DNA of 64,000 bases. Source: Candidatus Eiseniibacteriota bacterium (GTDB taxonomy: Bacteria; Eisenbacteria; RBG-16-71-46; CAIMUX01; WJJG01). A model generated the notes under the pieces. It was not told the DNA's origin. It made no database searches and saw only the letters and a list, made by a program, of their open reading frames with translations. A program made the translations under genes and the position numbers. Shown one piece after another: positions 37-12,483 of the stretch (the stretch's first letter is position 1; every line of letters starts with the position of its first letter). The stretch is from contig JAGMBO010000005.1 in NCBI GenBank assembly GCA_023129715.1, positions 1 to 64,000 of the forward strand. Reading direction: 5' to 3'.

Positions 37-3000
37 TCAGCGAACCAGAACGATGCGGCGGCTGACGCGGCGCCCGTCGGCATCCAAACGCAGGAAATAG
101 ACCCCACTCCCCACACGCGCTCCGCCTTCATCGGCCCCATCCCAGCGCAGGCTCTGCGGCCCGGCGGGCGTAGGGCCGCGCAGCAAGTCGCGAACCCGGC
201 GGCCACTGACATCGAAGAGCGCCAGGCGCGCCTCGCGCGCGGGCGCGCGCAGTCCGAAGCGGATCGTCAGTCCGGCCCCGCCGGCCAGCAGGGGCATCGG
301 GTTGGGCAATGGTGCAGCAAGAAAGAAGGTATGCCGTCCCGCCGCGGTGCGGATCGTGATCGTATGCGTCTCCCGCCGGGTCCCGTCTGGAAGCACGGCC
401 AGCAGCATGTACTCATAGAGCGTCCCCGAGGCCACTCCGACATCGAGGTAGCGCAACTCCCCATCCCCATGCACCGGCGCGTCCGGATTGCGCAGGGCAT
501 ACTCAGCCCCCGGGAGTTCGGGCATCCGGCGGTAGACATAGAAGTCGGATCCGAGTAGCGCCGGAGGCGGAGTCCAGCGGATATCGATTCCACCACCGGT
601 CTCGGCCACCGCGAAGGCGACGAGTTCGACCGGGGTGCCCTCGTAGCGCGCCCACAGCCCGCTTGGACGCCGAAAGGGGGGGCCGCCGCGATAGAGCTGA
701 CACTCGGTGCCCGCGGACCCAAACCGCAGCAGGCTGCCGGTCGGACCGGGGTAGCCTCCCGGGTTGGCCGTGCCGTCGGCGATCAGTAGACGTCCATCCT
801 CGTCGCAGATCAGCGCCCGCGGATCCTGGACGTACTCACACGAGGCGATCAGCTGCGGGGATGCATCCCCGGACAGGTGGTAGACGAGCCCACCGCCCAA
901 CCCCCGCTCGACGACCAGCAACTCCCCGCCGGGCCCCCACCCCCCACACCGCGGCGAGCGGAAGGGATCGCCCACCCAGAGGGTCATCACCGTTCCCGTG
1001 AGCGGATCGACACTGAAAACCCCACCGGTGAAGCCGCCCACCCCCGGCTTGGCGGCGCGATCGACGACGTAGAGCATCCCGCTGATTCGATCGAGGATCA
1101 GGTCGACCGGTTCCGCGAAACGCGCATCGGAGGCGACCAGGCGCCCCGATCCCGTCTCGAGGTCAACGCTGTAGATCGCCCCCGGTCCTCCGCTCTCGGA
1201 GCCGGAGATCAAATCCAGGGGATCGGCCTCCCGATCCAGGAGGTAACAGAGCGTGCTGTCCAGCAGGGCGAGGGCGACCGGCTCGACCAGGCTCGAATCC
1301 TGGAACAGGGCAACGACCGCGCCGGTGGCCGTACTGGCGCGAAAGAGGCCCCCCTCGCCGAGTCCCGGGCCGGGAGCGTCCGCGTCGAGCACCAGCAACT
1401 CGGTCGCGCTCCCCGGCAATTGCACCACGCCAACCGGAGAACTCAGCTGCTCACTCACGACGATCGGCACCGGCTCGCGCGTCGGCCCCTCAAGACGGAA
1501 AACCGCTCCGTGCGCGACGTCGTCCTCCAATGGATTGGCGCGTGCATCGGCGACGAGAAGCTCGCCTTCCCCCGTCGCCGAGGCGACGTAGTGGCGCAGC
1601 TCGGCTTCGGTCCCCGCGGCCATCGCCGCGGTCATCACCAGGCTCTGGACCCCCCAGGGCGACTCACCGGGGCTGCGCGGCGCAACCATCATGCGGTAAT
1701 CGATCGCAACCGAGTCGCCCGCGCCCAGGGGCCCCTGCCAGGTCAGTTCCGCCTCCGCCACCGCCAGGTCTCCAGCCGTCGCTTCCAGTTCCAGAACATC
1801 GAGGATCAGGATTTCGGAGAACTCGATCGTTGCGATCGCCGCGGGCTCGACGAGCGTGGAGCTGTTCTCGAGCACCAGCCGGCAGTCGAGCGTATCCCCG
1901 GCCGCAAAGCCACCCTCGCGGCCGTCGACCAGCCCCCAGCGGCGGATCCCGATGCGAGGCGCCGGGACCCGCACAATCGCCTGTAGGCGCGCGAGCGACG
2001 AATGCTGCACGGCACCGATCAGTTCGCCCGTCAGGCGATTGACCCGCAGGAGCGCCCCCGATCCCTCACCGCCCGACGGCTGAGCCGTCGAATCGACCAC
2101 CAGCAACTCATCCGTAGAGAGGGCCAGCATGCGGGTCGGTGTTCCGAAGTCGTCGGAGGTCAGGAGCACCTCGATCTCGCGCGTATCCGGGTCGATGCGC
2201 CGAATGCCCGTATCACCCCCGATGTGCCAGATCGGATCGGTGAAGTAGAGCCCTTCCCCCGCGACCCAGGCCAGTCCCTGGGGATCGGCGAGCGCATCAT
2301 TGGCCAGCGTATCGATCAGCGTCCCGGTCTCGCTGTCGAGGATGAAGAAAGCGCCGCTGTTCTGAACCGGATAACCTCCCGGGTTGGCCCGCACGTCGGC
2401 AACCCAGAGATCGCCATTCGGGGCCAGCGCCATGTCGACGGGGCGGCGGAAGGCCTCGGGGTTCGCCCAGACCTCCGGGTCGCCACCCTCCTCGGGCACA
2501 TAGAAGACCGCTCCGTGCCCGACGCCGCCCGGTGAGGGCACCTGGGAATCGAGCACCCAGTAGCCACCCTGCGGGTGGGCCAGCAGGCGCAGCGGCATCA
2601 CCAGGGGATCCCCCATCGCCAGGGTGGTCAGGCTGTCGGTCGTCAGATCCCAGAGCTTCAGGGCCGGCTGGGAAGGCTCCTCACCGGACGTGTCGACTTG
2701 CGTGGCGAGCACGGCGAGGCGCTCGTCCCCGACCACGAGGAGATCGACCGGATTGACCAGCTCGGGATGTGTTCGATAGGGGTACAGCGCTCCCTCGTCC
2801 CGATTGTAGAGGTAGAGCGCGCCCTGAGCTCCCATCTCGAAGGGATCGGCCTGCGTATCGAGCACGAGAATCTGATCGGGCGGGAGCGGCCCGCTGATCG
2901 TATCGCGCAGTGTGGCGGTCGAGGGATCCTCTCCCCCGATAATCTGTAAGGTGACCTCCGCGGTCGCCGGGCTCACCGCTAGAGAGTCGACCCGCAAGAG

Positions 3001-5601
3001 CACGCGCAGCGATTCGGGTGCGACAAAGGCGAGGTCGGCCGACCAATGCAGCGTGCCTGAGGAGACCTCGGCGCGCACATCGCCGCGGCTGGCCGTGGCC
3101 GAGATGAAACGCAACACCGACGAGTAGGTCAGCACGCCTCCGGCGCCGAGTCCCGGCGTCGGTACTTGGTTCTCGAGCACCGCCGCAACCTCGAGCGTGT
3201 CACCCGGCGCCAAGCGGCCCCCGTTGAGATCCTCCATCGCGAACTGCCGGCTGACGATCTCCGGGGGCTGATAGCGGGCGGCGCGGCGGGGGCGACCGAG
3301 ACGAAAATGGAAGCTCTGCATCTCGAGGTTCCACCGCCCTCCTTGCCGGTAGAGCCGCAGGAGTCCGCCGTGTCCCGGGTAATAGAGATTGCGCTGCACA
3401 TCGCAGATCACGAACTCATCGTTGCCCCAGGGAACGATCCCGGCCGGTTCGATGAGCAACGTGTCCTGCGGCGAGGAGGCAAGACGCGTGAAGCTGAACA
3501 CCCCGGACCCGAGGCGTACGAGCTGGATAACCGACGGCAGGCTCTCCACGATATCGGTCACGAAGATGCGCCCCCGCGAGTCGACACAGAGACTGTAGGG
3601 ATCGTCCATCAGCCCGGTGGCGCTCAGGCTCTGGACAATCGCGCCGTGGCGATCGAGCTCGATGATGCTGCCCCAGCGCGGCGCGGCCGGCGCTGACTGG
3701 TAGTCGGCCACCAGGTAGTGGCCCCCCACGTCGGGATGGACATCGACCGGATCGCCCATGACAGCAAGATCACCGGCCGCGAAGAACGTCGTCAGCTCGC
3801 CGGTCTGCAGGTCGAGGCGATAGATCGCCCCCGCGGTTGCGTCGGGATAGGTGCCCTTGGGGTCGGCGATCAGCAGGGCCCCGTCGTGGGCCATGCAGAG
3901 GCCGCTCGGATCGCTCAACGGCGATCCCTCGTAGAGCACGCTGAGCGAGCGGTCGACCGGATCGATGGCGACCACCTTCGGCCGGTCCGGATCGCTGTCA
4001 AGCACGTAGACCCAGCCGTCGGGCCCGATCGTCACGTCGACCGGCGCGGGCAGCAGCCCGGTGCGATCGGCGGCCCACTGCTCGGGTTGATACCCGGTTG
4101 CATCGAGGGTGAAGAGCTGCGGGGCCGGATAGACCCTGTAGGGATCGGCGAAGATCACCAGGCCCGGTTCGAGACCCGCCGCGATGTCATAGCGGAGCGT
4201 GTCCCGGCGCGCCAAGGCCTCACCGGTCAGCTCAATCGCTACCGCGACTTCGCTGCCGGCAGTGAGTGCTTCAGGTACCCGCACATCGACCGTAACCCGC
4301 AAGCTCTCCTGCGCGGCCAGCGATCCCTCCCAGGCGAAGCGGTTGGCGCCGACATCATAGGAAAGCGCGCCGCTCGCGGCACTGGCGGTTCCGAAGAGGC
4401 AGTCTAGGGAATCGAATGCCACCGCCAGGCGCAGATCCGCCGCGTTCGCGCCCCCGCCGTTGATCAGATCGGCGACCAGCGTGCCCCGCGCACCGGGCAG
4501 CAGATAGGTTTCGGGAAGACCGGTCAGGGTGACGCGGCTCGCGTCGAGATCGGGCCCGGCGTAGAGTCCGCCCGAGCGCAGGTCGGTGAAACGGGAATCA
4601 GTGAGAACATCGATGAGATCCCCACTGGCGAGATCGATCCGCACGACAACGCCCTGCGCATTGGCATAGCCGTCGGGGTTGGCCGTCCGGTCGACCACGG
4701 CGAGTTGGTCCCCGGGCAGGACGACCAGATCCACCGGATCCCGCAAGACCGCCGCACCAAGCGTATCGATGATCGTCAGACTGCTCAGCGAGATCACGTA
4801 GATCGCCCCGCGGGCATCCGGATAGGCCGGCAGAATCGCCCGCGCATCGAGCAGCAGAATCGTCTCCGCGTCACGCAGGGCCACCGCCACCGCACGATCC
4901 GCAAAGCTGAGCGAGAGGAGCGGCTCGGTCTCGTGGGTCTCGGGATCGACACGGAAGAGCGCCCCGGTACCCGGCGCGCCCGAACTCATCCGCCCCCAGG
5001 CATCCATGACCAGGATCGTGCCCGCCGCCTCGGCGACCAGATCTCCCGGCGCCACAAAGAGGGAATCGCTGGCGATCAGACCAATCGCCTCGGTGGCCGG
5101 ATCGAGTGAGAAGAGCGCCCCCTGATACCCCTCGCCGAGTGGATCGGCACTCCGATCCAGCATGAGGATCTCTCCCGCCGCGCCGCGCGCGAGCGAGACG
5201 ATCTCGGAAAAGAAGGGATGGACGATGCTACGCGACGCCGCGCCCAGGGAATCGTAGGCATCGGCCATCCAGACCCGGGGACCATCACCGACATAGAGCG
5301 TCTTCTCCGAGCCCCAGGTGATCCCTGAGAGGCCGCTGATCCCGGCAAGGTAGCGAACAGGACGCACGCCCGCACTCACGGGATCCGCAGCCACCAGGGC
5401 CCCGGCGGCCGCCCCCGCGGGCCAGCCGCGGTCGACGAGGATCAGCTCGCCGAACTGGGGCGGATCGACCGCCCCGGCGGAGCCCACGGCAATCAACGCC
5501 GCCAGGAGCAGGCCGGCAACCCGGATCCACGGCGCCGACGCGAAACCCAGGCCGGCGATCCCGGTCATCCTGCGGGCTTCTGCATCGCGTGCCCCTACCA
5601 C
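37..5601 (-). CDS. Giant secreted beta-propeller/NHL-like protein with FlgD-like C-terminal domain
   Basis: A protein of about 1854 residues. After a signal peptide (hydrophobic run AGLLLAALIAVGSAG), it has many modules built on the pattern 'lVlDa.adP.g..GalfrvdP.tg....l', which resemble NHL or SMP-30 propeller blades. Between them lie CARDB/DUF11-like beta segments with 'gDtl....vlEN' motifs. The last 80 or so residues form a FlgD-like Ig domain (LFDVSGRRVRDL, then GVYFLRLDADG), the usual tail of surface proteins in FCB-group bacteria. I chose the GTG at 5601 because GGAGGAG lies 8 nt upstream; an ATG at 5568 and one at 5658 are also open. Probably exported and cell-surface or extracellular. 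The specific function is unknown. Confidence 0.8.
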   Translation of the reverse strand: MVGARDAEARRMTGIAGLGFASAPWIRVAGLLLAALIAVGSAGAVDPPQFGELILVDRGWPAGAAAGALVAADPVSAGVRPVRYLAGISGLSGITWGSEKTLYVGDGPRVWMADAYDSLGAASRSIVHPFFSEIVSLARGAAGEILMLDRSADPLGEGYQGALFSLDPATEAIGLIASDSLFVAPGDLVAEAAGTILVMDAWGRMSSGAPGTGALFRVDPETHETEPLLSLSFADRAVAVALRDAETILLLDARAILPAYPDARGAIYVISLSSLTIIDTLGAAVLRDPVDLVVLPGDQLAVVDRTANPDGYANAQGVVVRIDLASGDLIDVLTDSRFTDLRSGGLYAGPDLDASRVTLTGLPETYLLPGARGTLVADLINGGGANAADLRLAVAFDSLDCLFGTASAASGALSYDVGANRFAWEGSLAAQESLRVTVDVRVPEALTAGSEVAVAIELTGEALARRDTLRYDIAAGLEPGLVIFADPYRVYPAPQLFTLDATGYQPEQWAADRTGLLPAPVDVTIGPDGWVYVLDSDPDRPKVVAIDPVDRSLSVLYEGSPLSDPSGLCMAHDGALLIADPKGTYPDATAGAIYRLDLQTGELTTFFAAGDLAVMGDPVDVHPDVGGHYLVADYQSAPAAPRWGSIIELDRHGAIVQSLSATGLMDDPYSLCVDSRGRIFVTDIVESLPSVIQLVRLGSGVFSFTRLASSPQDTLLIEPAGIVPWGNDEFVICDVQRNLYYPGHGGLLRLYRQGGRWNLEMQSFHFRLGRPRRAARYQPPEIVSRQFAMEDLNGGRLAPGDTLEVAAVLENQVPTPGLGAGGVLTYSSVLRFISATASRGDVRAEVSSGTLHWSADLAFVAPESLRVLLRVDSLAVSPATAEVTLQIIGGEDPSTATLRDTISGPLPPDQILVLDTQADPFEMGAQGALYLYNRDEGALYPYRTHPELVNPVDLLVVGDERLAVLATQVDTSGEEPSQPALKLWDLTTDSLTTLAMGDPLVMPLRLLAHPQGGYWVLDSQVPSPGGVGHGAVFYVPEEGGDPEVWANPEAFRRPVDMALAPNGDLWVADVRANPGGYPVQNSGAFFILDSETGTLIDTLANDALADPQGLAWVAGEGLYFTDPIWHIGGDTGIRRIDPDTREIEVLLTSDDFGTPTRMLALSTDELLVVDSTAQPSGGEGSGALLRVNRLTGELIGAVQHSSLARLQAIVRVPAPRIGIRRWGLVDGREGGFAAGDTLDCRLVLENSSTLVEPAAIATIEFSEILILDVLELEATAGDLAVAEAELTWQGPLGAGDSVAIDYRMMVAPRSPGESPWGVQSLVMTAAMAAGTEAELRHYVASATGEGELLVADARANPLEDDVAHGAVFRLEGPTREPVPIVVSEQLSSPVGVVQLPGSATELLVLDADAPGPGLGEGGLFRASTATGAVVALFQDSSLVEPVALALLDSTLCYLLDREADPLDLISGSESGGPGAIYSVDLETGSGRLVASDARFAEPVDLILDRISGMLYVVDRAAKPGVGGFTGGVFSVDPLTGTVMTLWVGDPFRSPRCGGWGPGGELLVVERGLGGGLVYHLSGDASPQLIASCEYVQDPRALICDEDGRLLIADGTANPGGYPGPTGSLLRFGSAGTECQLYRGGPPFRRPSGLWARYEGTPVELVAFAVAETGGGIDIRWTPPPALLGSDFYVYRRMPELPGAEYALRNPDAPVHGDGELRYLDVGVASGTLYEYMLLAVLPDGTRRETHTITIRTAAGRHTFFLAAPLPNPMPLLAGGAGLTIRFGLRAPAREARLALFDVSGRRVRDLLRGPTPAGPQSLRWDGADEGGARVGSGVYFLRLDADGRRVSRRIVLVR

Positions 5602-5718
5602 CGCAGCTTCTCCTCCCGCCCCGGACGCCCCCGCCCGGAGCGGCTCCCGCCCGCGCATGCGGGAAGGACCCCGATCATGATTGGGCGGCTCGGGCGGTGA
5701 GTCAAGATTGCCCCTCCC

Positions 5719-7083
5719 TCAGATCCACTGCAGGAGCAGGGTCGTCGCGCCCAGGTAGATGGTCAGCCCCACGATGTCGTTGGTCGTCGTCACGAAGGGG
5801 CCGGTGGCCAGCGCCGGATCGGCGCCGAGCCGCTTGAAGACCAACGGCACCGCCGAGCCGACGATCGCCGCAAACGTCATCGCGACCGCCAGGGAGAAGC
5901 CGACGACCGCCGCCAGCTTGATGCGGCCCAGCCAGAGGGTCACGATCAGCCAGAGCACGGCCGCGAGAATCAGCGCATTGAGGGCCCCGACGGCGATCTC
6001 CTTGACCAGGCGAGCTCGCGAGGTGGGCTCGGCGATCTCGCCGGTCGCCAGTCCGCGCACGATCGTCGCCGAGGACTGGATCCCGACATTGCCGCCCATC
6101 GCCATGATCACCGGAACGAAGAAGGAGATCTGCAAGGCCTCGCGGAACTCGAAACCGGTGACAAAGCGGCTCATCACCCATGCCGAGAGCGCGCCCCCGG
6201 CAAGACCGAGCAGCAGCCAGGGAAGCCGGTTGCGCGAGACGGAGAGCACCGAGTCGCGCGGCGACTCCTCCTGCAGGGCGCCCGAGAGGCGCACGAAGTC
6301 CTCCGAAGCCTCCTCCTCATAGACATCGAGGATGTCATCCAGGGTGATCTGTCCGAGCAGCCGTCCAACGTCGTCGACGACCGGCACGACGACGAGATCG
6401 TACTTGCGGACGAGCTCGGCAACCTCTTCCTGATCCAGAGAGGCCGGTACTGAGAGGAATTCGCGATCAGCGATCTCACCGACGAGCCGGTCCGGTTCGT
6501 TGAGCAGCATGCTGCGCAGTGAGAGGGTCCCGGTGAGCCGCCCGCCGCGGTCGACGACGAAGACCTGGGGCACATCGCGTTGGGTCTCTCCGGCTTGACG
6601 CAGGCGCTCGATCGCCTGGGAGAGGCGCTCGCCTTCGGGAACCGCCACGACCTCGACGGCCATGATGCCGCCGGCGGTGTCCTCGGGATAGGCCAGCAGC
6701 CGCCGGACGCGCCGGGACTCGGCCGGATCGATCTCGGTGAGGACGCACTCGGCGACATCATCGGCGAGATCCTGAACGAGATCGGTGGCATCGTCGGAGT
6801 CGAGATCCTCGACCAGATCGACGATCTGCGAGGCTTTGAGCACACTCAGGAGTCGTTCGCGGGCGCCTTCCTCCATCTCGGCGATCGCGCGGGATTGATT
6901 CTGCGTCCCGATCAGGCCGAAGACATAGGTGCAATCGTCGTCCTCCAGATTCTCGAGGACGTCGGCCAGGTCGGCGGGGTGCAGTTCGGCGAGCAGACCC
7001 CGCAGGAGTTGCTCGTTGCGCGTCGCGAGCAGCGCCCGCAGGTCGTCATGGAATTCGTCGCTGGGGGGACGCCAGAAATCCAT
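5719..7083 (-). CDS. mgtE: Magnesium transporter MgtE
   Basis: A 454-residue protein with MgtE architecture: an N-terminal helical superhelical domain (about 1-130, with the typical 'LHPADLADVLENL' repeat), a pair of CBS domains (about 135-255), and about five transmembrane helices from residue 285 to the end. In the family the cytoplasmic N and CBS domains sense Mg2+ and gate the dimeric pore. The frame ends in TGA right after the last helix, which shows that TGA is a normal stop codon in this genome. It starts 23 nt downstream of the cytochrome/UshA-like gene and may share its transcript. Confidence 0.95.
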   Translation of the reverse strand: MDFWRPPSDEFHDDLRALLATRNEQLLRGLLAELHPADLADVLENLEDDDCTYVFGLIGTQNQSRAIAEMEEGARERLLSVLKASQIVDLVEDLDSDDATDLVQDLADDVAECVLTEIDPAESRRVRRLLAYPEDTAGGIMAVEVVAVPEGERLSQAIERLRQAGETQRDVPQVFVVDRGGRLTGTLSLRSMLLNEPDRLVGEIADREFLSVPASLDQEEVAELVRKYDLVVVPVVDDVGRLLGQITLDDILDVYEEEASEDFVRLSGALQEESPRDSVLSVSRNRLPWLLLGLAGGALSAWVMSRFVTGFEFREALQISFFVPVIMAMGGNVGIQSSATIVRGLATGEIAEPTSRARLVKEIAVGALNALILAAVLWLIVTLWLGRIKLAAVVGFSLAVAMTFAAIVGSAVPLVFKRLGADPALATGPFVTTTNDIVGLTIYLGATTLLLQWI

Positions 7084-7106: not shown

Positions 7107-8489
7107 CTACGGCGCCGGCGCCGTGTGCCGCACCGCCGCCAACGCCTCGGCGTAACCCCAGGCGGGGCTCCACTCCGAGGTGTGGCACCGGCGGCAGAGC
7201 GCCTCGGTGATTCGCGGCGCGTCGCCACCGCGGACATGGCGGGTCCCGACGCCGTGACACGCCTCGCACTGCACACCGGCCAGCGCGCCACCGCCGCGCC
7301 CGGGGTGATAGCCCCCGGGGCGTCCATAGCCGGTCACATGACACCGCACACAGGCGGGATCGCCGCCGCGGCCCTCGTCCCTCAGCGTGGTCAGCGCGTG
7401 GGCATGGGCCGTCGCCGACCACTGCTCGCTCTCGGCAACATGACACCGCCGGCAAACGGATTGGCCCAGATAGTGGTCCTGACTCGAGACGGGGGCGCGG
7501 GTCGTGGACGAGCGCAGTACCCCTCGGGCCGCCCGTTCGGCCTCTCCGACCTGGGCAACAACGAGGGAATCCTCCGGCAACGCGACATCGAGTACGATCT
7601 GGCGCCCGCCCCAATCGAGGATCTCCCCGTCCGGGGAAACGATCAAGCGCGTCGCCGAGAAGGACTGCCCATGGGAACCGCTCCGGTTCAGGATCACCTC
7701 GCCCACCGGCATCGCATAGGTCGTCGGAATCGGGCGGTAGCCGCTCAGAACGACGTCGATGCCCTCCACCTGCCTGGCGATCCGAAACCCCTCCTCGTTG
7801 CCGACACACGCCATCACGACAACGATCTCGGCCGAATCCCGGATCGTGGGAAGCACCTCGGCGATCGCCGCCAGGGGATCCTGGTAGGTGTAGGGAATGC
7901 CCCCGGGCATCTGGATCGCACCGAACGCCGACTCACCGAGAACCCCGATCAGACCGACGCGGAGGCCGGCCCGCTCGACGATCAGACTGCGCGGGGCAAT
8001 CGGCCGCTGCTCCCCGTCGATGAGCTGGGTGAGATTCGCATTCACCAGGGGAAGCGCGTGACCCGCCAGCAGCGCCTGGAACTCCTCCCAATGCGCCAGC
8101 TCACGCGGTCCCGGCGTCATCGCCGCCACGCCCTCGCGCTCGAGACGCTCGATGAGCAGTTCGTTGACCGGCCCCCACCGGCGCGGCGCCACCTCAATCA
8201 GATCCCCAAGGTCGAGGATCAACAAGGGGAATGCTCCCACCCGCAACGAATCGACCATCCTGGCCCGCCGGGCCAGACCGCCCTTGCGCTGGTTGCTTCA
8301 CCCGACCGCGCGGAGCTTGCCATCGAGCGAACCGCTCGCCAGGATCAAGAGCGCCGCATTGGCCGGCCGTCGCCCGGCCTCTCCGAGCATCGGAGCACGG
8401 CAGCCGGGCAGGCCCATGGCCAGCAGCGGCAGGCCGAAAGCGATCGCCGCCAAGGCGGCGGTGTAGCGTCTAGCCCTCGATCTCGCCAT
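7107..8489 (-). CDS. UshA-like lipoprotein with tetraheme cytochrome tail; in-frame TGA, probable selenoprotein
   Basis: One reading frame runs from an ATG at 8489 (GAGAGGCGGG upstream) to 7107, crossed once by TGA at 8298-8300 (codon 64), giving 460 residues if read through. It begins with a lipoprotein signal (GLPGC, Cys30). Next is 'LASGSLDGKLRAVG-TGA-SNQRKGGLARRA', which aligns with the 'EPCGC....GGLARRA' start of UshA-like 5'-nucleotidase relatives and puts TGA at the second Cys. The metallophosphoesterase ligands are mostly lost: the NDLHG motif is SGSLDG, the GNHE motif is GPRE, and only LGDL remains. The last 110 or so residues carry four CXXCH heme-c motifs, as in cytochrome c554-like domains. 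A hairpin lies 21 nt after TGA. Conventional calling would report only residues after Met78. Likely a periplasm-facing redox lipoprotein; substrate unknown. Confidence 0.72.
8260..8276 (-). promoter_or_regulatory. SECIS-like hairpin after the in-frame TGA
   Basis: In the mRNA, 21 nt after the UGA, the sequence CUGGCCC-GGC-GGGCCAG forms a perfect 7-bp stem with a 3-nt loop starting GG. Bacterial SECIS elements sit directly downstream of the UGA inside the coding region. Their apical loop lies about 16-37 nt away and has a G among its first two bases; this loop starts at +29. In DNA this rich in G+C such a stem can arise by chance, so it is supportive, not decisive. Confidence 0.45.
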
Positions 8490-8730: not shown

Positions 8731-11700
8731 TCAGAGACGGCGGCGTTCGTACTTGATATCCGGAAGGTCCTTGATACTGATTCGGAAGTAGTAGCTCGAT
8801 CGCCCACCACTCGTCCGCCGCTCGAAGACCGCCTGCCAGCAGTGCAGATCCCGTGAAAGGGTATACCCCTGGGAGGTCACCGCCTCGTCACTGATGTCGT
8901 AGTAGAGACCGTACTGCACCCGCCATGCAGGCGTCAGTGAAAGCCCCAGGGAGAGATTGGCCGAGCTGTTCTCCTCGGCCCCGGCGCTCTTCGAGAGCAC
9001 ATGGGTCAGCGTCATGTGCCAGGGTCCGGTCAGTGAGGAGAGCGCGGTCACGCCCCCGGGGCCGGGATCGATGCCCCCGGCGGGGTCACCGAAGTCCCCG
9101 TGACCTTCGCTGCCTGGAGGTAGCGTGCCGGCGCCCGCGTCTGCTGTCCGGCCGGTGCCCGCCGCGGTGGCCCCCCCGGCAACCCCGCCACCGCTGAGTC
9201 TCACGTTCGTCCGCAAGGAGAGCCGGTAGTCGTCGCGCCAGCGCTCGGGATCGTGCGTGATCGAGAGATTCGAGTCCAGGAAACGGCCCGGCTGCAGCCG
9301 GAAGCTATGGGAGATGTTGCTCCAAGGTTGCGCCTGCGCGGGATCGCTCGCCTTCTCCTCGGCAAGGAAGTCATAGGCGGTCGAGGTGCTCCAGACGAGC
9401 ACGTTCTCTTTCTTGCCCCCGCCATCTTCCGAGCGCCACTTCAGGTGGAAGCGTTGGGTCGCACGCAGGGAAACCGAACTTGCCTTCGAGCTGCGCAGGC
9501 TGATCCCGCCGACCGACGGAAATCCCTCGAGGTCTTCCAGCTCGGGGCGGTAGCTGTAGGCGGCGCTCAGCTCGACGACGTGCCGCAGCGCTTCCCAGGC
9601 CCCAAGATGCGGGGAAAGGGTCCCATAGAGCGTGGTTCCCGCAGAGAATCCCGCCCGCCAGGAGACGCCGGTGCGATGGCGGCCGCCGTCGGGATCCTCA
9701 TGGACCCAGGCGGCAGAGATGGTCGCCGACGGGGTCAGATTGATCGCTCCCAACAGGCGGCGCTTGTCCGAGAGTCTCACATTGAGACCGGAGGCCTGAT
9801 TCGTCTCCCGCTCACCGCACCAGTTCTTCGAGTAGATGCTGCGGTACTTCAGATCGCCGCGCACGTAGGTGCTCGCCAGAAACCCGAGTCGCCCCCCGTG
9901 TCCCCGTTCGTCGGCGCGCACGCCGAGCGGGAAGGAGTTCAGCGAGAAGGTCACGCTCGGAATCGACTGGCTGATCCGATTCGAGCAGTCTTCCGGGTCG
10001 CTCAAGTACTCGGTGCGATCGGCATAGAGCGAGAGCGAGGCTGCCGACCAGCTCTTGCTGAAGCTGACCTGGGAACGCAGAACCTGGTTGATGCGCTCGT
10101 CGACGCTGGCGCCGAAGTCGCGATCGCCGCCATAGTCCTTGTCGCTCTGGAAGTTTCCCGAGATCTTCAGGCTGGTACGCTCACCGAGCATCTGATCATG
10201 AGCGAGGCGGATCAGCCAGCGGTCGGCGCGTCCTCCGAGATAGTTCTCCTGGCGCGTGAACGAGGCTTCCGCCTGGCCGCTCAGGACGTAACGCAATCGA
10301 TAACGCGTCTTCAGGCTGTAGGTCGTGCGCGGGTCTTCCTCGTAGTAGTCGAGCCACCCGAGCATGTCGATGTAGTCGTTGGGGGCCCAGTAGTAGCCGA
10401 CGTTCTTCAGGAAGCGACCGCGTGAGGTGTCGAGACCAACCTCGACATCGGGAATCAAGATGCCGCTCTGGCGCCCACGTCGAGTCGGGAAGACCGCATA
10501 GGGAACCGCCATGATCGGAATGTGCCCCAGGTAGAGCACCACCGGGCGCGCCACGACCTTCTCGCCAGGAATGACCTTCATCTTCGGAGTTCGGAAGTGG
10601 AAGTGCGCGCTGTCGTCGGAACAAGTCGTGAAGCGCCCTTCCTCGACGAAGAAGGACTCGGCCGTCACGCGCTTGATCCGCTCTCCAATGTAGTATCCGG
10701 TGCCGAGTTGACTGCGCCCCTGGCAGATGAGTCCTTGATGCCGGTCGATACGGTAGGTCATCTCTGTCCCGACGATCTTCGAATTGCGATCGCTGAGCTC
10801 CGGCTCTCCCCGGGCGACGACGAGATTGCGCGGCGCATAGAAGACGATCTCCTCCGAGCGCAATTCCATGTCCCGGTAAGTCACGCTGCCCTCCCCCGAG
10901 ATGAGCATCTTCTCGGTGGCCACCGCGAAGTCGATCTGCTCTCCCGCGTAGTGCACCGTCTCCCCGGGATCGAAGGGCAACCACGCCAGCAGGGAATCGC
11001 TTGGCTCGAGGCTGCCGTCCCGGGCGAGCTGCCGGATGGCGTTCAAGGCGGCGGGGGAATAGGCCCCCTCGCTCGGACGGCGCGTGCGCGCGGCCGGTGT
11101 CCGCGTGCGCGCGGTATCGATCTCTGCCGACCCCTGCATGGTTCCGTGAGCGGCGTCCGCCGAAGCCGCCTCGGTCGTATCGGACTCCGCCGACGCCGGG
11201 AGCGGCGCGGGCGCGGCGCCCCGGGGCGCACCCGTGTAGGGTGTCGCGTAGCGCCCCTCGGTGCCCCCCTCGAACTGGATGCGTTCGACCCCGCTCTCGC
11301 CAAAGACGAGACGCAGCCGGCGCCCCCGGGTCCAGTTGTAGCCGACGCCCTGCGTGCGGTCCTCGGGGGAGGGCAGGTAGAGCGCCTCCGCATGCCCCTC
11401 CAGCAGCACGCTGCGAATCGCGCCTTCCTCGAGGAATGCGGTCAGCGAGTCCCCGACGGCGAAATGCCGCTCTTGGGGACGGTCGGCAGGGCTGTACTCA
11501 CTGCACGCATGGCCCCAGACCGAGAGGCGCTCGGCTGCGCCCCCGCGCAAGCCGACCACCATGCTGTCGCCGCTGATCCACCCTTCGGCATCCTGCATGA
11601 CCGGCGCCCCGGTCAGCAGAATGCGGTCTTCGGGCAGGAGGAAGCGGGCCCGCTCGCAGAACCCCTCGGCGCCCTCGTATGTCAAGGTCACGCCACCGCT

Positions 11701-12483
11701 CGCCGCCCCGATGCGCTCGTCGGTCCCCATCTCGAGGGTATCGGCGGTGACGCGCAGGCTGGCGCCCTCGGGACCAAACCCCTGCTCCATCCGGGGACGG
11801 AAGGACTCGTTGCCCACGACCCACATCAGAGCGGCGGCGCGATCGTAGGTCAGATACCGGCCTCGGACCTCGATGCTGTCGACCTGATCGCGCACGAGGA
11901 CTTCATCACCAGCCGTGGCGATGGAGTCGGCCAAGTTGTAGTGCAGCCAGGCGCACTCCAGACGCCGGTCGGCTTCGAGCAGGCGAACCGCCCCGCGCAA
12001 GGTGAGCGTCTCGCCGCGGCGGTCGTGGAAGAGACGGTCGGCGTAGAAGCGCCCCTCGGGCCCCTCGCCGCGCACGTTCTCCTCAAGCTCCAGTTTCTCC
12101 GACTGCCGGTAGTAGAGGCCGCGCTCGGCGTAGAGCACTCGGGATGTATCGCGGATGACCACCTGGCCCTGCAGCTCGATCACCTGCAGCTCGGGCAGCC
12201 AGCGCCCCTTCAGGGCACGGATGTGCATGGACTCGTGTTGGACCTCGACCGAGTCGATCTCCAGCGGCCCATCGATCGTGCCCACGAGCTGGCTCCCCGC
12301 CAGACGCCAGAGTCGCCCGCCAAGTCTCTGCCGGGCCGGCTCCCCCCTGGCGGGCACCTCGCCGACCGCCTCAGCCTCCGCGCTTGCCGGCACCTCTTGG
12401 GCGCGCGGCGCACCCAGGGCCCCGGCGCAGAGGGCGAGCAGACCGAGCAGGGCGGCCAGGAGGGTCAGGCATCCGGGGGGCAT
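8731..12483 (-). CDS. lptD: LPS-assembly outer-membrane protein LptD
   Basis: A 1250-residue protein with a signal peptide, two OstA/LptA-like beta-jellyroll segments (about 60-330 and 500-600), then the LptD barrel region ('ARPVVLYLGHIPIMAVPYAV', followed by many amphipathic strands ending near the C-terminus). LptD with LptE inserts lipopolysaccharide into the outer leaflet. The protein is much longer than E. coli LptD (784 residues). A low-complexity Ala/Pro/Thr-rich linker (about 410-475) separates the OstA segments. The start ATG at 12483 follows GAGGGGGAG and overlaps the ROK gene by 19 nt. It indicates an LPS-type outer membrane. Confidence 0.9.
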   Translation of the reverse strand: MPPGCLTLLAALLGLLALCAGALGAPRAQEVPASAEAEAVGEVPARGEPARQRLGGRLWRLAGSQLVGTIDGPLEIDSVEVQHESMHIRALKGRWLPELQVIELQGQVVIRDTSRVLYAERGLYYRQSEKLELEENVRGEGPEGRFYADRLFHDRRGETLTLRGAVRLLEADRRLECAWLHYNLADSIATAGDEVLVRDQVDSIEVRGRYLTYDRAAALMWVVGNESFRPRMEQGFGPEGASLRVTADTLEMGTDERIGAASGGVTLTYEGAEGFCERARFLLPEDRILLTGAPVMQDAEGWISGDSMVVGLRGGAAERLSVWGHACSEYSPADRPQERHFAVGDSLTAFLEEGAIRSVLLEGHAEALYLPSPEDRTQGVGYNWTRGRRLRLVFGESGVERIQFEGGTEGRYATPYTGAPRGAAPAPLPASAESDTTEAASADAAHGTMQGSAEIDTARTRTPAARTRRPSEGAYSPAALNAIRQLARDGSLEPSDSLLAWLPFDPGETVHYAGEQIDFAVATEKMLISGEGSVTYRDMELRSEEIVFYAPRNLVVARGEPELSDRNSKIVGTEMTYRIDRHQGLICQGRSQLGTGYYIGERIKRVTAESFFVEEGRFTTCSDDSAHFHFRTPKMKVIPGEKVVARPVVLYLGHIPIMAVPYAVFPTRRGRQSGILIPDVEVGLDTSRGRFLKNVGYYWAPNDYIDMLGWLDYYEEDPRTTYSLKTRYRLRYVLSGQAEASFTRQENYLGGRADRWLIRLAHDQMLGERTSLKISGNFQSDKDYGGDRDFGASVDERINQVLRSQVSFSKSWSAASLSLYADRTEYLSDPEDCSNRISQSIPSVTFSLNSFPLGVRADERGHGGRLGFLASTYVRGDLKYRSIYSKNWCGERETNQASGLNVRLSDKRRLLGAINLTPSATISAAWVHEDPDGGRHRTGVSWRAGFSAGTTLYGTLSPHLGAWEALRHVVELSAAYSYRPELEDLEGFPSVGGISLRSSKASSVSLRATQRFHLKWRSEDGGGKKENVLVWSTSTAYDFLAEEKASDPAQAQPWSNISHSFRLQPGRFLDSNLSITHDPERWRDDYRLSLRTNVRLSGGGVAGGATAAGTGRTADAGAGTLPPGSEGHGDFGDPAGGIDPGPGGVTALSSLTGPWHMTLTHVLSKSAGAEENSSANLSLGLSLTPAWRVQYGLYYDISDEAVTSQGYTLSRDLHCWQAVFERRTSGGRSSYYFRISIKDLPDIKYERRRL

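Follow-up and report, generated by a model that had tools for sequence, protein, structure and literature searches.

The closest described relatives of the gene studied here are the UshA-like selenoproteins, a family on record since 2008 that still has no function assigned to it and whose motif is CxU (PMC2398784, PMC13188914). The original prediction noted that such proteins had already been named, which is correct; they are published and are modelled in NCBIfam as NF041198 (UshA_like_PCGU; COG0737, UshA-like). The stretch of DNA that we analysed (the window) is 64,000 nucleotides from a Candidatus Eiseniibacteriota bacterium (contig JAGMBO010000005.1, positions 1–64,000). One of its genes encodes a protein that has in common with NF041198 a UshA-type domain, a predicted selenocysteine (Sec) at the same column, the GGLARRA sequence that follows it and a C-terminal multiheme domain. 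Unlike the modelled family, it has lost the Cys of CxU together with the following His and has gained another Cys, C228. The UshA-like domain and the multiheme part are thus present and the CxU (PCGU) motif is absent; the score is 161.9 bits, below the curated cut-off of 275, with the match falling in two stretches, the best of which aligns residues 307–446 with model positions 364–518/519. The family-level orthologues L028 and L029 score 201.2 and 178.9 bits, respectively, and the cut-off is passed by L040, L051, L077 and L127, all of which have PCGU. The family itself is already known; what is new is the variant form that the window protein has in common with its family-level orthologues.

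Similarity to UshA-like selenoprotein family 2 (NCBIfam NF049981, UshA_like_Sel_2, CxxU; model length 262) is weak and covers the Sec loop only (residues 63–85; 16 bits versus a cut-off of 140), taking in no heme part. With cytochrome c554/CycA (PF13435, 1bvb) only the heme part is in common (residues 345–413). The same genome encodes a paralogue (L024, G000:C165:69430–70377; 35% identity) that is also a Sec-containing UshA-like lipoprotein but, unlike the window protein, keeps EPCGUH, is heme-less and has His at the C228 position. Searching the literature on selenoproteins of Eisenbacteria or Krumholzibacteriota, on selenocysteine and LptD and on c554–nucleotidase fusions returned nothing relevant.

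The gene lies on the reverse strand at 7107–8489, from an ATG at 8489 to a TAG at 7107–7109, and encodes 460 residues if its TGA is read as Sec. As first described, this is one frame with a single interruption, the TGA at 8298–8300 (codon 64), at which the listing of open reading frames splits it into pieces of 383 and 101 residues. The lipoprotein signal that was originally noted is there, with the lipobox LPGC (8400–8411) ending at C30, and the lipobox Cys is found in most of the Krumholzibacteriota-clade relatives that cover this column and in two of the three Eisenbacteria proteins of the same variant; the ribosome site, which had been called good, is only moderate (GAGAGG, ∼11 nt 5′ of the ATG). 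The four expected heme-c motifs are all found: CRRCH (residues 346–350; 7440–7454), CVRCH (380–384; 7338–7352) and CEACH (408–412; 7254–7268), which lie in a PF13435 (Cytochrome_C554) match at residues 345–413 (54.8 bits), and CRRCH (432–436; 7182–7196), identified from the sequence. An AlphaFold model built from a ten-sequence alignment (pLDDT 72.6, below 50 in the Sec64 loop) has a predicted fold that resembles solved 5′-nucleotidase-type structures, for example 3gve (TMt 0.69). By its sequence, the protein is an exported lipoprotein in which a decayed 5′-nucleotidase (UshA-type) domain precedes a cytochrome c554-like domain with four hemes.

The comparison goes beyond the original prediction in that the defining CxU motif is broken in the window protein and its partner cysteine appears to have been relocated. 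The residues preceding Sec64 are A61-V62-G63 (8301–8309), so that the PCG of PCGU is replaced and the Cys at position −2 is lost (V62), giving AVGU; L028 and L029 have PTGU. Related loci were recovered from genome contigs with a ten-sequence alignment as the query, a single-sequence search of the same contigs having found none; six of the loci (L101, L102, L106, L110, L122 and L140) have no clear family motif. Among 109 distinct proteins, 67 have CGU, 17 have CGC and 25 have another residue at −2 (xGU), and Cys never stands in place of Sec where the −2 Cys is missing (no xGC among the 109). The xGU proteins fall into two clades with a support of 100 each, one of three Eisenbacteria proteins and one of 22 from Krumholzibacteriota and near relatives. 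A single common xGU clade is rejected (AU p = 7.9e-5), which indicates two origins, the −2 Cys having been lost independently in the Eisenbacteria and Krumholzibacteriota branches. Tandem copies of the family also occur (L032/L058 on G002:C10, L061 in G011, L065 in G017 and L057 in G007); some of them set a Sec form beside a Cys form, or a heme-bearing copy beside a heme-less one.

Each of the two clades has a cysteine of its own. C228 (codon 7806–7808) is present in all three complete Eisenbacteria xGU proteins and in the truncated L030, a pattern of four sequences in one clade that amounts to one evolutionary event. Elsewhere Cys occupies this column in one of the 67 CGU proteins and in none of the 17 CGC proteins; the CGU proteins mostly have His or Gln, and the column aligns with the SHLG His, a metal ligand, of the Thermus thermophilus 5′-nucleotidase (2z1a). 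The Krumholzibacteriota xGUG proteins (for example L104) are likewise tetraheme Sec proteins that lack the −2 Cys and have lptD upstream, but with an independent origin: they keep His at the C228 position, and their new Cys lies in a DCAD motif that is found in 22/22 of them and in none of the 84 CGU and CGC proteins. We infer that the partner thiol moved twice, to different places, in two events, and we lean towards C228 being the relocated partner cysteine of Sec64. That the partner Cys was lost twice, each time alongside an invariant, clade-specific Cys and never with a change of Sec to Cys, suggests a hint at the mechanism of the Sec centre, and the loss of the adjacent Cys with a gain elsewhere makes a likely role in disulfide chemistry testable.

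Sequence comparison provides the Sec column, the SECIS, the domains, the loss of the −2 Cys and the gain of C228; the pairing of Sec64 with C228, the thiol substrate and the direction of electron flow are what we infer from them. A Sec–Cys centre beside a multiheme domain suggests thiol–cytochrome redox exchange. Sec64 and C228 would form a reversible selenenyl-sulfide, this centre would exchange electrons with the thiols of a periplasmic substrate and the hemes would pass the electrons on. Such a redox pair would resemble that of a Dsb-type thiol oxidase by analogy of function only; its two candidate residues, Sec64 and C228, are both present. We put thiol/disulfide redox with the hemes as an electron relay at roughly even chances; a role as a reductase is possible. 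Taken as a whole (Sec64 decoding, a relocated C228 partner and thiol redox with hemes), this is the best explanation that we have and, blending our separate judgements of its parts, a probable one.

The alternative that survives best is that Sec64 works alone and that C228 is coincidental, with the selenol reacting with an external thiol or a small substrate in a peroxidase-like or reductase-like manner and the hemes serving as the electron donor. Some selenoenzymes do without a resolving Cys of their own, the CxU partner is gone from the Sec loop and C228 arose only once, all of which would fit. Against this, C228 is the only Cys of the mature window protein outside the hemes and the lipobox and sits at an active-site ligand position, and the second lineage without the −2 Cys also has its own invariant Cys. 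We regard Sec64 acting alone as unlikely.

Much less favoured is a UshA-like catalytic function, as a nucleotidase or another metallo-esterase in which Sec would add a further ligand to the metal. The fold and distant sequence similarity to 5′-nucleotidases and SoxB speak for it. The ligands of the two-metal site of UshA (D41, H43, D84, N116, H217, H252 and H254) are largely missing: the window protein has not kept H43, N116, H117, H217, H252 and H254 of UshA, and the GD aspartate (the D84 equivalent) alone is clearly there. Because the metal site is largely gone, phosphatase activity is unlikely as judged from the sequence, and a metallo-esterase with a Sec ligand is highly improbable.

The TGA at 8298–8300 is almost certainly decoded as selenocysteine (Sec64), in agreement with the original prediction; the hairpin at 8260–8276 and the Sec machinery of the genome itself would aid decoding. 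The homologues that a protein search turned up come from 46 of the 47 genomes of the phylum. In an alignment that was not filtered on the motif, the column of codon 64 has TGA in 26 of the 30 readable homologues and Cys in the other four, with no other residue among the 30; such agreement is well outside what chance would produce, and the TGA does fall on a Cys position of UshA-like proteins, as proposed; a 31st homologue (L030) starts after this column and is outside the count. The wider sample of 109 distinct proteins gives 92 with Sec and 17 with Cys, in a tally whose search pattern required U or C in the Sec column and would miss any other residue there. The genome (4.83 Mb, 95.9% complete; a metagenome assembly, as are its relatives) has the machinery that was to be looked for: a tRNA-Sec with a TCA anticodon (68.8 bits; gathering threshold 47), SelB (317.9 bits), SelA (537.9 bits) and two SelD proteins (410.4 and 373.5 bits), all four proteins above their cut-offs. 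One of the selD genes (L018 and L019, on G000:C109 and C138) is itself Sec-containing, with its own in-frame TGA and a GAGUAS motif, and the other is Cys-containing and sits in an 892-residue open frame, possibly a fusion. Reassignment of TGA (code 4/25) was rejected because lptD, mgtE and other genes of the window end normally in TGA. Some homologues have a further TGA, which we weighed as a possible second Sec and also rejected: in the homologues shown it is the ordinary stop at the C-terminal end. A genuine stop or a mistake in the assembly, leaving a broken gene or two short frames with a downstream restart at an internal ATG (8258), would accord with the stop in the frame and the two listed pieces. 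This reading is extremely improbable: the TGA is too conserved at its column for error or decay, conservation extends to the 5′ part with its lipoprotein signal and first strand, and the RNA covaries 3′ of the TGA.

The hairpin is as originally described, CUGGCCC-GGC-GGGCCAG, with a 7 bp stem (5′ arm 8276–8270, 3′ arm 8266–8260), a GG-starting loop (8269–8267) and a 5′ arm that begins 21 nt after the UGA. In bacteria, a SECIS takes the form of a hairpin just downstream of the UGA whose small apical loop contains a G (PMC1088965), and the hairpin at 8260–8276 fits this description in both position and loop. Its folding energy is not unusual for comparably GC-rich DNA (z = −0.65); against synonymous-codon shuffles the mean z is −0.84 to −1.12 in the Sec groups and 0.02 in the Cys group. 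Folding energy alone was rejected as support for a SECIS, and the case is carried by pair covariation. A GG-starting loop is found in 88/92 Sec genes versus 4/14 Cys genes (Fisher p = 3e-8), and a stem of 5 bp or more in 81/86 versus 3/11 when genes with the amino-acid motif in common are compared (p = 1.3e-6). The third codon positions of a Leu and an Ala codon are paired in 88 of the 92 Sec genes (51.4 in shuffles) and in seven of the 14 Cys genes (6.1 in shuffles); two outer stem pairs in the Sec genes also exceed every shuffle, while none of the three stem pairs does so in the Cys genes. These counts are uncorrected for relatedness, but the variation lies largely at synonymous sites and includes several different pair types. 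By these comparisons, the SECIS-like hairpin shows covariation at third codon positions where the gene encodes Sec, and most Cys genes lack it.

Directly upstream of the selenoprotein gene, and also on the reverse strand, is lptD (8731–12483; PF19838, LptD_2), and directly downstream is mgtE (5719–7083, reverse strand), a gene order common to the family-level orthologues. Adjoining mgtE, positions 37–5658 encode a predicted secreted protein of 1873 residues with repeated segments. A co-oriented lptD lies no more than 1 kb upstream of the U codon in all three Eisenbacteria xGU loci, in all 21 Krumholzibacteriota xGU loci with enough DNA and in 32 of the 58 CGU loci (37 if those farther off are included); lptD is upstream in one of the 15 CGC loci. 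The pairing with UshA-like selenoprotein genes is seen in Eisenbacteria, Krumholzibacteriota and some Gemmatimonadota metagenome-assembled genomes (MAGs). A strict operon reading is weakened because in Krumholzibacteriota a small gene, HU-like by its sequence, intervenes between the two. The neighbouring LptDs have two invariant Cys, at window residues 621 (15/15) and 1215 (21/21), which precede and follow the match to the barrel domain (642–1078), respectively. In Escherichia coli LptD, disulfides between the β-taco and the barrel activate the protein (PMC10567701), and the two invariant Cys recall these by analogy.

Six Cys-type loci (L108, L128, L133, L136, L142 and L148) have a DsbA-like gene within ∼25 bp downstream (for example L128 6243–6872, L133 6167–6793 and L142 6121–6747); Pfam confirms DSBA for three of the six and the others were assigned by similarity. 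These pairs come from Nitrospirota, one deltaproteobacterial MAG and one gammaproteobacterial MAG. The gene order, with lptD just before most of the Sec-type genes and a DsbA-like gene just after six of the Cys-type ones, suggests disulfide chemistry and makes LptD or a DsbA-like protein the best candidate partners. DsbB was found in 0/47 genomes of the phylum, VKOR in 8/47 and DsbA in 12/47. This linkage, in a phylum in which DsbB was not found, gives a testable proposal for how the disulfide of the LPS translocon is made. In its broadest form, which we advance tentatively and regard as unlikely, the UshA-like tetraheme (seleno)proteins would be an unrecognised heme-coupled periplasmic disulfide route, oxidising the thiols of LptD or a DsbA partner via Sec and passing electrons to c-type cytochromes in place of DsbB/VKOR, with the branch of the window protein having swapped the partner cysteine of Sec. 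The window's own genome is not without a classical disulfide system, since it has a VKOR match and two DsbA-like matches on one contig. These lie together at G000:C122:102597–104339 in open frames of 774 residues, likely a VKOR–DsbA fusion. In two order-level relatives, DsbA-fold proteins (L185 1501–2082 in G003 and L186 1501–2076 in G002) have a U-P-W-C active-site motif whose U is encoded by an in-frame TGA and are, by sequence, Sec-containing DsbA-like proteins.
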